In this document: piece by piece, positions 50,832-56,158 of the stretch
Numbering within the stretch: the stretch's first letter is position 1
Layout of the letters: each line of letters opens with the position of its first letter
DNA from: Candidatus Thalassarchaeaceae archaeon
GTDB taxonomy: Archaea > Thermoplasmatota > Poseidoniia > Poseidoniales > Thalassarchaeaceae
NCBI GenBank assembly: GCA_023268715.1
Contig: JALRLV010000005.1
Location: 1 to 64,000, forward strand
DNA length: 64,000 nt
Direction of reading: 5' to 3'
The notes under the pieces: model-generated
What the model was told of the DNA's origin: nothing
The model's database searches: none
Seen by the model: the letters and a program-made list of their open reading frames with translations, nothing else
Made by a program: the position numbers and the translations under genes

Positions 50832-51806
50832 ATGACCGTGGTCTTGGGTAGAGGCACCTGCGGGGGTCACGTAACACTACTGTTCACAGTCGAAGACATT
50901 GACAAGGACCCCATCAAGCAAGGTAGTCTGGGCACTGGGTTGTGCCTGAATGATGGAGCAGAAGCCATTGCTAGAGGGGAATTAGGTGATTATTCTCTTG
51001 AAGTAAAACTGCTAGATGGAAATGGCGATTCAAAGATGTTCCAGCAGGTTTTAGACCTCCTTAGTGACGAAATTTCGGCGATTTTAGACTATAGTTGGGA
51101 AATCGCGATTAGAAACAAATTACCATCTTCACAAGGATTTGGAATGTCGGCCGCCGGTGCAATTGCCGCCGCCTCTGCATTTCAAAGGGCACTCGGATTA
51201 CCCCATGAGGAGAGTTGGCGAAGATCACTTGCCATCGCTCATTTGGTTGAAAGGCAGAATTCAACAGGGCTCGGAGATGTTACTGCACTAGCCGCTGGAG
51301 GAGTAGAGCGTAGATTGAGTCCAGGCTCTCCCTATTCGGGTCCTGATCTATTGAATGGGCCTGGTCGTTCCGAAGGTTGGACAGAATCGATTCCCGTTGT
51401 TTTGGCTTGGCGGGCAAACCCCGGAAGACACACATCGGAATATATTGACAATGATGATTGGAAACAGTCTATTACAGAGGCAGGCAGAAAACAAATCGAC
51501 CTGCTGTCCGATAAGACCTGGGATAATTCTCGATGGGGCGAACTCCTCAACTCTGCAGAGGCATTTTCAAAACAATCTGGGCTGAGTAATGATGCAGCCC
51601 GTTCTGAATTGGTAGATAAAGGAATAAACGCCTCACAAAGAGCCGGTTTAGATTCAGAGACGTCAGTTTTGTTGTGTATGTTAGGAGAGAGCATTGTCAT
51701 TGTTCCGAGAGATCTTTCAAAGGAAATTTCCCTAGAGAATTTATTGACGGAATTAACCGTAGAAGGGTTGAATGTTACTCTAACTAAGGTCGGGCCACTA
51801 TCATGA
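50832..51806 (+). CDS. Pantoate kinase (archaeal CoA pathway, GHMP family)
   Basis: GSLGTGLCLNDG, LPSSQGFGMSAAGAIAAASAFQRALG, STGLGDVTALAAGGVERRLSPGSPYSG. Confidence 0.85.
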   Translation: MTVVLGRGTCGGHVTLLFTVEDIDKDPIKQGSLGTGLCLNDGAEAIARGELGDYSLEVKLLDGNGDSKMFQQVLDLLSDEISAILDYSWEIAIRNKLPSSQGFGMSAAGAIAAASAFQRALGLPHEESWRRSLAIAHLVERQNSTGLGDVTALAAGGVERRLSPGSPYSGPDLLNGPGRSEGWTESIPVVLAWRANPGRHTSEYIDNDDWKQSITEAGRKQIDLLSDKTWDNSRWGELLNSAEAFSKQSGLSNDAARSELVDKGINASQRAGLDSETSVLLCMLGESIVIVPRDLSKEISLENLLTELTVEGLNVTLTKVGPLS

Positions 51807-52871
51807 ATGTGAACCGCCAGCTCGCTTTTCGTGGAATTCATCAAGAGGAGTCAAATCTAGAGGGCTAGCATCGAGTAAAATTGCACCTCTTTGAACTAAA
51901 GAATCAGTAAATCCGTGTCTATAAACGATCGCTCCTTGGCCATACTCCTTGACGTATCGGTCAACCTGTTTCTGAGTCTTCTTTCGAGGGAATCTTAGGT
52001 CCGCCCCATAGAAGTGCTTAGCATCAATCCAGGCACAAGGAACTCCATTGATTCTGACATCATCAAGCAACAGAAGGTCAGGGGTAACTACCGCTCGGCC
52101 TTCAGATTCTTTCTGCTCACGAAGTAAATCCTCCTGTCTTCGAAAACGAATGTCTAGGGAATCAAAGTGTGCACACAGAATATCTTCGAAAACCTCAGCA
52201 GCCGTCTGAGTATCGGACTGATTGACTGAACTGACCTTATCGGCTTCTTCCGCTTTAGCGAACTCCTCTTGGTCACGATCACTCATTCTATCTGGGTTTT
52301 TCAGTGTCTCTTTGATTCGATTCTTTGACCATCCTCGGCCGCTTAATATCGCCCTGAATGTATTGACTGGAGGCGCATCAAATCGTTGGGAAAGAGTCAG
52401 TACCCCCTCACCGTTATCGTATCGTCTTCGTAATTGGTTGGCATTTCGCATCAAGCGCCCGTGTGAATGTACACTCTTTTCTTGATTCAGGGCACCGCGA
52501 AGCGAAAGAGCTTGTTCTATGGTTATTGGAAGGTGGCCTATTTGTCCTCTAATTTCATCGACTCTTTCTTCAGGAAGGAAGCCAAATTCTCCAGGTTTAC
52601 AGACAATGTCGCCAACCTTCCTTTGGATGTTTTTTGGAACTGCATTAGTACTCCACTTCAATTGTCTTTCTTGTGGAAGTGGATCGATTGATTCAGGCAT
52701 TCCCATCGGAGGGGGTGACTGATTGAAACGTGCCAAGGCTTGCTCAACAGCATCGGGATCGCCTTGCGACCATGGCCTAGATTCGGTACCATTGGTCGGC
52801 TTCCTTCGAGACCGAGTCCTTCTGCGGCGGCCTCCACCTTCCTTATTCTCGCTCAACGAGACTTGCGACAT
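51801..52871 (-). CDS. CDIN1 (C15orf41)-like TPD-motif PD-(D/E)XK nuclease homologue
   Basis: VVTPDLLLLDDVRINGVPCAWIDAKHFYGAD ... YGQGAIVYRHGFTDSLVQRGAILL, with helical region upstream. Confidence 0.75.
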   Translation of the reverse strand: MSQVSLSENKEGGGRRRRTRSRRKPTNGTESRPWSQGDPDAVEQALARFNQSPPPMGMPESIDPLPQERQLKWSTNAVPKNIQRKVGDIVCKPGEFGFLPEERVDEIRGQIGHLPITIEQALSLRGALNQEKSVHSHGRLMRNANQLRRRYDNGEGVLTLSQRFDAPPVNTFRAILSGRGWSKNRIKETLKNPDRMSDRDQEEFAKAEEADKVSSVNQSDTQTAAEVFEDILCAHFDSLDIRFRRQEDLLREQKESEGRAVVTPDLLLLDDVRINGVPCAWIDAKHFYGADLRFPRKKTQKQVDRYVKEYGQGAIVYRHGFTDSLVQRGAILLDASPLDLTPLDEFHEKRAGGSHS

Positions 52872-52916: not shown

Positions 52917-53282
52917 TCATGAATTACTGGAGTTTCTGTTTCGATTACGAGCATAGAGGTCGTAAGCAAAATTACGTATGGGGCTCGGAACAAACCAAAT
53001 GATTGCCCCAAAATTATAGGGGAAACCAAGACCGAGAAGGATGCGTATCACCGCTGTAGATTGAGCATACCATTTCCCAGATTCATCGATTAGAAACACT
53101 GAGTCAAGTTTACTCATCTTTACGGGACGATTGCTTAGAACTTCTCCCCCTTGAGTAGTCTCTTGGGCGATAATCGAGAAGCGTTTTAACGAATCTCGCT
53201 TGTTAATGAAAGTCGCCCAACCAGTACAGACCGGACAAAAACCATCGATAAGAACGGTGTACTGAGACCCCATCTTTAACAC
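52917..53282 (-). CDS. DCC-family (DUF393) thiol-disulfide oxidoreductase-like protein
   Basis: VLIDGFCPVCTGWATFINKRD (DGxCxxC), ...STAVIRILLGLG. Confidence 0.85.
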   Translation of the reverse strand: MLKMGSQYTVLIDGFCPVCTGWATFINKRDSLKRFSIIAQETTQGGEVLSNRPVKMSKLDSVFLIDESGKWYAQSTAVIRILLGLGFPYNFGAIIWFVPSPIRNFAYDLYARNRNRNSSNS

Positions 53283-53284
53283 CC

Positions 53285-56158
53285 TCAGACAAAGGCGATA
53301 CCGGGCTCCAATGGGAAAGCGAAGCGGGCCTTTCCTCCAATATCTTCACCTTCGCCAACCGGATATGCAGCAACAGAATTGACTTCCAAAACAGTCGCAA
53401 TAAAGTCCGAAGCAGAATTGATTACTTCGCTTTCATCAATGCCGCTCAAAATCAATTCTCTCTCACCTTCGGCCCATGTGTGTATTCGGCCTCTTTTCTT
53501 CTTAGAGCCCATAGTCAAGGCCATCCAAGTTTGGAATATTTCTCCCCTCAATGATTCATTCTTGAAAATCGCCATCGACTTGAGAAGATCTTGGCCTTTT
53601 GCTTTGAAATCAAAATCTTCACCCGCCAAATTTACCGCTTCACGCGATAACTCAACCTTCCAAGATGGCGCGGTTTGAATTACAACTCCAGAAATTTCCG
53701 CATCAGAGTGGCGTTCTGCTAGCCCCCTTAGGTTACGGGCAGATTCAATTACTCCCCGCAGGTAAGATTCTCTAGCAAGAATTGTAGCATCATTTTCCTC
53801 ACCCGAGTAGAACCTCATCTCATGTGTTGCCAACATATCGGATGCTTCGCCCATCGAAAGTTCTGACCAGAATTCTTCAGCGATATGCGGGGTTGCTGGC
53901 GCCAACATTGGTGCCCATCCGCGAAGATATTGGCGCGCAGTGTCCCTATCCGCTCCTCCTCTTCGTAGATACCAATGCCAATCAGATAACATCTCAAAGT
54001 GACTTGACATAACTCCCTCTCGAAGGCTTACAGCTTCCATGCACTCTCGCCAACGATTCTGATTGACCCTAAGGCGAGCCAGTAACCAGGAATCCATCGG
54101 ACCGGGAGAGTGAGAAAGGGAATTTCCGTGATTGAAGGCGTCAATAATTGAGCACACTTGCTTATGATTTGCAATTACAGCATTATCAGACCAATCCATT
54201 CCTGCCTCTGGGTTCGCACCGAAGAGTATGAACAGTCGGACAGTGTCAGCACCAAATCGGTCTACCATTTCTCCGGGACTCACAGTATTGCCCAGACTCT
54301 TGCTCATCTTGGCGGAACGTGAGCCTAATCCTTGTCCACAATTGGGGCAATCTCCTCCGAAATTATCTATGTGATACTCGGTATTACAATCTACACAGAA
54401 TGGCGCGGGCGCATTTAGCATCCCCTGACAGACTAAGCGCCCGAATGGCTCGCTGACCTCATTCATACCTAGGTCGCGAGTAGCCTTTGTGAAGAATCGA
54501 GCATAGAGTAGATGCATGACGGCGTGTTCAATACCGCCAATGTACAAGTCAACACCTCCATTCATCCAGTAATCTACTGCTTCACGATTGAATGGGGCTG
54601 AATCATTTGATGAATCGACGAATCTCATAAAGTACCAAGATGAATCATAGAATGTATCCATTGTATCGGTCTCTCTGCGCGCAGGACCGTTGCACTGCGG
54701 ACAAGTTGTAGTAAGGAAGGATTCACTACGAGCCAGTGGATTGCCACTCTCTTCCCAACTAAAAGTCACATCCAAAGGCAACTCTACGGGTAGTTGTTCG
54801 TAGGGTACTGGAACTACTCCACAAGAATCACAATGTAACATTGGAATTGGAGTTCCCCAGAAGCGCTGGCGGCTCAGTAACCAATCCTTCAGCCTATATT
54901 CAGTGGAACCGTGGCCCGCTCCTTTTTCTTCTAAGGCTGAAATTACCGCAGTCTTTGCATCATTACCGAATAGACCATCGAATCCTTCTATGGCTGAGTT
55001 GACCATCCATCCTAATCCATCGAATACTGGATTCTCCTCAACTCCTTCTCCACCTTCATTCCTTGATAGAACAGGTTTGATTTCAAGTCCGTATTTTTTG
55101 GCGAAGTCGTAATCTCGCTGATCATGTCCTGGAACCGCCATCACAGCACCGGTTCCATAACTTGCAACAACAAAATTACCAGCATAAATTGGTACTTGTT
55201 CCCCAGTGATTGGATTAGTTGCAAGTCTACCAAGAGGGACTCCTTTCTTTTCTTTCAGCATATTGATTCGCTCAAATTCAGTCATTCGAGCGCACTCCTC
55301 TGCTAAATCTCTCCAAGCCTGTTCGTATTCGGTTCCGCTTACTAGTGGCTCACAAAGGGGATGTTCAGGAGATAGAGTAACGAAAGTGACTCCGAAGATT
55401 GTATCTGGACGGGTTGTAAATGCACCAATGCTAGCGGATGCGCCTTCTACATCACCGACCACAGGGAATTCTATGTGGGCGCCATGTGAACGGCCAATCC
55501 AGTTCCTTTGCATCGCTTTGACGTTCTCTGGAAATTCAATGTGGTCTAATTCATCCAATAATTCGTCAGCATACTTTGTCATGCGCAAGAACCACTGCGC
55601 CATATCCTTCTGAACTACCTCAAGACCACAACGCCAGCAACGATTATTCTTGACTTGCTCATTTGCAAGTACTGTATCACAATCATCGCACCAATTGACT
55701 GGTGCGAATCTCCTTTCTACCAAACTCGCCTCGTTGAATCGAAGGAATAATTCTTGATTCCAGCGATAATATTCCGGTGTGGAAGTTGCAAACATTCTCC
55801 TCCAGTCGTATGAATACCCCATTCTCTCCTGATCGGCTCTAATCATCTCGATATTTCTCTCAGTGACGCTGTGAGGATGACCACCTTCCTTCTTGGCAGC
55901 GTTTTCGGCGGGCATTCCGAATGAGTCGTATCCCATCGGATAGAGGACATTCTTTCCCATTAAGCGCTGGAAACGAGCCATGGCATCGCCAATCGAGTAA
56001 TTTCTTACGTGGCCCATGTGCATGTATCCAGATGGATATGGAAACATTTCGAGACAGTAGAATTTCTCGCGAGAATCGTCTACTTCTGCATCGAATACGC
56101 GGGCGTCACGCCAGCGAGCCTGCCAGCGTGTCTCGATTTCCGCCGAATCGTATACCAT
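53285..56158 (-). CDS. leuS: Leucyl-tRNA synthetase, bacterial-type architecture
   Basis: MFPYPSGYMHMGHVRNYSIGDAMARFQRLMGKNVLYPMGYDSFGMPAENAA, WIGRSHG, KMSKSLGNTVSPGEMVDRFGADTVRLF. Confidence 0.96.
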   Translation of the reverse strand: MVYDSAEIETRWQARWRDARVFDAEVDDSREKFYCLEMFPYPSGYMHMGHVRNYSIGDAMARFQRLMGKNVLYPMGYDSFGMPAENAAKKEGGHPHSVTERNIEMIRADQERMGYSYDWRRMFATSTPEYYRWNQELFLRFNEASLVERRFAPVNWCDDCDTVLANEQVKNNRCWRCGLEVVQKDMAQWFLRMTKYADELLDELDHIEFPENVKAMQRNWIGRSHGAHIEFPVVGDVEGASASIGAFTTRPDTIFGVTFVTLSPEHPLCEPLVSGTEYEQAWRDLAEECARMTEFERINMLKEKKGVPLGRLATNPITGEQVPIYAGNFVVASYGTGAVMAVPGHDQRDYDFAKKYGLEIKPVLSRNEGGEGVEENPVFDGLGWMVNSAIEGFDGLFGNDAKTAVISALEEKGAGHGSTEYRLKDWLLSRQRFWGTPIPMLHCDSCGVVPVPYEQLPVELPLDVTFSWEESGNPLARSESFLTTTCPQCNGPARRETDTMDTFYDSSWYFMRFVDSSNDSAPFNREAVDYWMNGGVDLYIGGIEHAVMHLLYARFFTKATRDLGMNEVSEPFGRLVCQGMLNAPAPFCVDCNTEYHIDNFGGDCPNCGQGLGSRSAKMSKSLGNTVSPGEMVDRFGADTVRLFILFGANPEAGMDWSDNAVIANHKQVCSIIDAFNHGNSLSHSPGPMDSWLLARLRVNQNRWRECMEAVSLREGVMSSHFEMLSDWHWYLRRGGADRDTARQYLRGWAPMLAPATPHIAEEFWSELSMGEASDMLATHEMRFYSGEENDATILARESYLRGVIESARNLRGLAERHSDAEISGVVIQTAPSWKVELSREAVNLAGEDFDFKAKGQDLLKSMAIFKNESLRGEIFQTWMALTMGSKKKRGRIHTWAEGERELILSGIDESEVINSASDFIATVLEVNSVAAYPVGEGEDIGGKARFAFPLEPGIAFV

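Follow-up and report, generated by a model that had tools for sequence, protein, structure and literature searches.

The rare inherited anaemia known as congenital dyserythropoietic anaemia type I (CDA-I) can arise from mutation of CDIN1 (C15orf41), a protein for which we know of no established biochemical role. The locus described here raises the question of whether an archaeal gene in a 64,000-nucleotide stretch of DNA (the window) from a Marine Group IIb archaeon (Thalassarchaeaceae, Poseidoniales) belongs to the same family and, if so, what kind of protein it encodes. Human CDIN1, either alone or together with codanin-1 fragments, displayed no nuclease activity on many DNA and RNA substrates (PMC7261414), and a 2026 paper states that no CDIN1 nuclease activity has been published (PMC13370696). 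A 2020 report described C15orf41 orthologues in Euryarchaeota, with a distribution that is older than that of codanin-1 (PMC7092493); archaeal members were therefore already on record, and the window gene adds a member, from a diverged subfamily, to a family already known.

A distant member of the TPD/CDIN1 family

A sequence-only reading of the window had proposed an archaeal CDIN1 homologue at 51801-52871. The open reading frame is borne out at those positions, on the minus strand (which that reading had not given), and the peptides that it quoted (VTPDLLLLDDVRINGVPCAWIDAKHFYGAD, GQGAIVYRHGFTDSLVQRGAILL, VLTLSQRFDAPPVNTFRAIL...IKETLKNPDRM and GGGRRRRTRSRRKPT) all lie within it. A Pfam profile search scored 73.1 bits for the TPD family (PF14811), whose curated cut-off is 27, at an E-value of 2.6e-20, well clear of chance; the match joins residues 198-328 of the protein to positions 3-127 of the 138-position profile. 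TPD was the sole Pfam family matched by the window protein, with no Pfam match to Hjc (PF01870), and an NCBIfam search gave no match; the divergent archaeal homologue rows also match TPD (39/39). By these profile comparisons the window protein truly belongs to the TPD/CDIN1 family, as one of its distant members. Its assembly holds one TPD gene only, and the gene is apparently single-copy and vertically inherited. The features of the locus are collected in Table 1.

Table 1. Coordinates of the TPD gene, its parts and its neighbours in the window
Feature	Position	Strand	Remarks
GHMP kinase, probable pantoate kinase	50832..51806	+	PF00288; NF040725, NF041122 at 62-69 bits
TPD/CDIN1-family ORF	51801..52871	-	356 aa, ATG start; PF14811 73.1 bits
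TPD nuclease-like domain, residues 198-345	51837..52280	-	Pfam match 198-328; alpha-beta pattern of model
Q302-x3-Y306, RecB/Cas4-type QxxxY motif	51954..51968	-	152/152 homologues
D283-A-K285, (D/E)xK motif	52017..52025	-	K in 152/152
T263-P264-D265, TPD motif, predicted metal-binding Asp	52077..52085	-	152/152
E229, invariant Glu, first core helix	52185..52187	-	152/152
All-helical region, residues 95-197	52281..52589	-	predicted helices, residues ~100-200 at pLDDT about 80-95
N-terminal extension, residues 1-92, basic tail GGGRRRRTRSRRK	52596..52871	-	Poseidoniales-specific; residues 1-33 predicted disordered, pLDDT <50
DCC1-like thiol-disulfide oxidoreductase	52917..53282	-	PF04134, E=3.7e-20; 45 bp upstream of TPD
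leuS, leucyl-tRNA synthetase	53285..56158	-	name from the sequence-only reading; 957-aa sequence consistent

The window protein shares with the TPD/CDIN1 family the domain match, the helical N-terminal region, the TPD and (D/E)xK motifs and the fold of the viral models described below, whilst it differs in that the acidic residue of (D/E)xK is Asp and not Glu, VYW-x-GF has R in place of W, and the N-terminus carries an extension, basic and about 95 aa long. The extra basic N-terminus had been remarked upon earlier and is indeed present, with a basic tail, as a feature specific to Poseidoniales: the median length before the core is 92-100 aa in Poseidoniales (the window's family and its sister family) compared with 2 aa in other archaeal members, and the first 40 residues carry a net charge of about +5 to +9. 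The invariant residues over about 256 aa are shared with the other Thermoplasmatota TPD proteins, and Methanosarcina acetivorans also has a match to PF14811; from all of these the window protein differs in its low identity (~17-26%) and in its place on a long, fully supported branch. In the tree a single, fully supported clade holds all the Poseidoniales sequences; its branch is long (3.06 changes per column), and the next family of the class and the remaining members fall outside it. On its sequence, the window protein is thus assigned to a long-branch Poseidoniales subfamily defined by DxK, W318R and the basic extension.

Putative active site and predicted fold

The homologue alignment (n=152, some genes having been fetched twice) spans about 256 residues and so extends beyond the Pfam domain. 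Eleven positions are identical in all rows (152/152), namely E229, T263, P264, D265, W281, K285, G289, Q302, Y306, G311 and G313, and the same positions remain invariant when near-copies are removed (57 rows, <80% identity). Residue 283 is Asp in 94/94 Poseidoniales rows and Glu in 58/58 others, and residue 318 follows the same split, being Arg in Poseidoniales and Trp elsewhere. The conserved set is of a PD-(D/E)xK-like pattern, in which Asp stands for Glu in the Poseidoniales lineage. Of the earlier proposal that the protein is a nucleic-acid nuclease, one part stands, in that the invariant PD-(D/E)xK-type residues are compatible with a nuclease; the activity itself is only putative. Compared with close relatives, the nuclease domain has a dN/dS of 0.014-0.055, the helical region one of 0.03-0.09 and the N-terminal extension one of 0.14-0.38 (ranges that omit one saturated comparison, L010). 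Purifying selection on the nuclease part is therefore strong, and no other part of the protein is as tightly constrained as this putative catalytic one.

The CDA-I missense site cited as Y238C may instead be numbered Y236C. It is possible that the tyrosine of the QxxxY motif is linked to this reported site (Y238C; PMC6539198).

An AlphaFold2 model of the protein was built from 46 Thalassarchaeaceae (MGIIb) sequences only, a restriction that made the folding alignment shallow, and reached a mean pLDDT of 71.6 and a pTM of 0.60 (a domain-only run was worse, at pLDDT 55.8). The model comprises a helical region at about residues 100-211, mostly of high confidence, followed by a helix (218-238) that holds E229, strands at 271-274 and 281-285, a helix (296-310) that holds Q302 and Y306, and strands at 313-317 and 330-334; confidence is low in the core around residues 257-266 and 288-295. 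Residues 95-197 probably correspond to the predicted helix-turn-helix (HTH) modules of the family, which are named after the human protein (PMC7261414). PD-(D/E)xK core elements are thus predicted, in a core of moderate confidence, and a Foldseek search of the model against the PDB returned no match at E<=0.001. Nor did the PDB yield a TPD structure by sequence, whether the query was the window protein, a relative closer to the consensus or the family profile.

Foldseek against predicted viral proteins (BFVD) gave three significant matches. The best was to A0A8F8SNR0, an unnamed protein (E=3.7e-18) which is 31% identical to the window protein, a value that exceeds the ~17-26% of the non-Poseidoniales archaeal members. 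The others were to a TPD domain protein of Powai lake megavirus (E=4.4e-9) and to the CDAN1-interacting nuclease 1 of Acanthamoeba polyphaga mimivirus (E=1.4e-5), the named giant-virus entries being A0A167RJG3 and A0A2L2DJP4. Since models of viral TPD/CDIN1 proteins match, the fold agrees with that of the family, predicted structure against predicted structure; structure prediction had been suggested as a check by the sequence-only reading, and the model appears to have a fold in common with the viral ones. Scans of viral contigs found no relative, although BFVD holds giant-virus TPD proteins.

Distribution and gene neighbourhood

TPD was found in 159/293 genomes of the phylum Thermoplasmatota, about half. 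It occurs in 39/39 genomes of the window's family, in 40/43 of the sister family and in 5/6 of the next family of the class, as well as in many, not all, other Thermoplasmatota; TPD is thereby shown to be nearly universal in Poseidoniales. Amongst the 14 named control genomes only Methanosarcina acetivorans carries it, and no match was obtained in further control genomes such as those of Haloferax volcanii, Methanocaldococcus jannaschii and Sulfolobus acidocaldarius. The record PBEM01000001.1, which is titled Chloroflexi bacterium, carries a TPD gene of Thalassarchaeaceae type (72% identity) and is probably a mislabelled or contaminated bin.

The gene had been described as lying next to pantoate kinase and leuS. 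Pantoate kinase does adjoin it and leuS is nearby, but a DCC1-like gene sits between TPD and leuS, all three being on the same strand with leuS the farthest upstream. The kinase and TPD genes are convergent, with an overlap of 6 bp, and are therefore not co-transcribed. The kinase scores of 62-69 bits fall far below the equivalog cut-offs (380 and 500) of two pantoate kinase models; the gene probably encodes a pantoate kinase that has diverged, or else a kinase related to it. Across Poseidoniales, TPD usually follows leuS, in many cases after one small intervening gene, and faces pantoate kinase and the uS13-uS4-uS11-RpoD block in convergent orientation. This synteny is kept within Poseidoniales, whereas outside it the neighbours are unrelated metabolic genes.

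No stable partner of TPD is evident. In several lineages outside Poseidoniales, TPD is adjoined by a Cas4-like PD-(D/E)xK nuclease whose middle part has several hydrophobic segments that probably span the membrane, and which has cysteines at its C-terminal end (directly downstream at L113:6520-7506, L114:6542-7528, L116:7184-8218, L117:6480-7469, L118:6823-7800 and L119:4296-5315). This Cas4-like membrane family is present in 92/145 Thermoplasmatota genomes, also where TPD is absent. As an obligate partner it was rejected, for it occurs without TPD in other families, and neither the window's genome nor the listed genomes of the same genus yielded it. Co-occurrence of TPD with histones is not general either (a histone match in 22/293 genomes compared with TPD in 159). 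One genome of the sister family does have a histone-fold gene in two adjoining pieces (G229, contig C15:11936-12180), whilst nearly all other Poseidoniales show none. The defence-system models gave no match. At four loci of the sister family (L134, L137 and L140, forming cluster 53, and L139:8082-8624) TPD is immediately preceded on its own strand by a gene of 171-196 aa; L139:8082-8624, the sole member scanned, had no Pfam match. The codanin-1 C-terminal domain (PF15296) was found in 0/60 genomes, and the control genomes gave no match either.

What kind of nuclease it may be

The order of motifs xPD, ExK and QxxxY is one that TPD shares with RecB/Cas4-type PD-(D/E)xK nucleases, and a QhxxY motif has been described for Cas4 and other RecB-like nucleases (PMC4625639). 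In Thermoplasmatota, [DE]xK followed by QxxxY was found in TPD (152/152), Cas4 (7/8), RecB-like proteins (13/15), the Cas4-like membrane family (5/6), Hjc (1/29) and ERCC4 (0/8), against a background of 6% in shuffled TPD sequences. At the profile level the two groups differ: hhalign comparisons of TPD with Hjc, Cas4, RecB-like and ERCC4 profiles gave nothing above unrelated controls (probability 0.7% for Hjc and 0.1% for Cas4 or RecB-like), so the RecB/Cas4 placement is a motif inference and not demonstrated homology. The C-terminal cysteines of Cas4 and RecB-like proteins are also not amongst the conserved TPD positions.

The explanation that we favour, and regard as probable, is that the window protein is a TPD/CDIN1 member acting as a metal-dependent nuclease on DNA ends or branched intermediates, independently of codanin. 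Nucleic acid would be bound by the basic tail together with the helical, HTH-like modules of the N-terminal region; E229, D265, D283 and K285 would coordinate one or two divalent metal ions and activate a water molecule; and Q302 and Y306 may stabilize the site, as in RecB/Cas4-type nucleases. The substrate would most likely be DNA ends or branched replication/repair intermediates, and QxxxY points to RecB/Cas4-type substrates (DNA ends, flaps, single-stranded DNA). Holliday junctions are an unlikely substrate because the same genome has its own Hjc and Hjc lacks QxxxY. TPD would act without codanin-1. The more specific proposal, that the distinct Poseidoniales subfamily (DxK, W318R, basic extension) is an ancient, codanin-free, RecB/Cas4-like DNA-end nuclease, is put forward tentatively.

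Three other readings were weighed against this nuclease. Inactivated nucleases usually lose the K or D of the active site. Were TPD instead to have lost catalysis and to serve as a scaffold or by binding nucleic acid, with the conserved residues being structural or metal-binding only, the negative assays of human CDIN1 (PMC7261414) and the changes of E to D at 283 and of W to R at 318 in Poseidoniales would be accounted for; this is unlikely, in that the putative catalytic positions are acidic or lysine in 152/152 homologues, quite unlike the usual course of inactivation, and codanin-1 was not detected (the controls being silent too). The conservation of the predicted active site in every archaeal copy examined suggests an ancient enzyme and not a scaffold.

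An RNA nuclease tied to translation would fit the way in which leuS and the uS13-uS4-uS11-RpoD block accompany TPD throughout Poseidoniales and, elsewhere, single cases in which the neighbour of TPD is a Mut7-C RNase or a gene of the RNA_binding family. The strand opposite to TPD, however, is the one that carries the ribosomal block and pantoate kinase, and the neighbours are wholly different outside Poseidoniales, which leaves this reading improbable. Less probable still is an Hjc-type Holliday junction resolvase, even though the literature likens C15orf41 to the archaeal resolvases (PMC7261414, PMC6539198) and Hjc shares with TPD the (D/E)xK motif and, by the literature, the PD-(D/E)xK superfamily. 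A separate Hjc is encoded in the window's own genome and in 39/41 phylum genomes overall, QxxxY is present in 152/152 TPD compared with 1/29 Hjc, and the hhalign probability is no better than that of unrelated controls.

If the codanin-independent nuclease is the correct reading, CDIN1 began as an enzyme and its link to codanin is a later eukaryotic addition. Archaeal TPD proteins without detectable codanin-1 keep all of the putative catalytic residues, which suggests that the family is, or was, enzymatic. To what had been reported for archaeal members are now added the near-universality of TPD in Poseidoniales, the QxxxY signature, the lineage-specific E-to-D change and a putative active site that is strictly conserved where codanin-1 was not detected; the window protein itself adds a diverged Poseidoniales branch. 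Archaeal TPD proteins are stand-alone proteins in which the enzymatic role of the family can be tested. The suggestion that the window protein could serve as a tractable model is weakened, since its subfamily is divergent (~17-26% identity to non-Poseidoniales archaeal members) and its host is uncultured plankton; the uncultured MGII are a poor model, and Methanosarcina acetivorans, which also carries TPD, is a better one.
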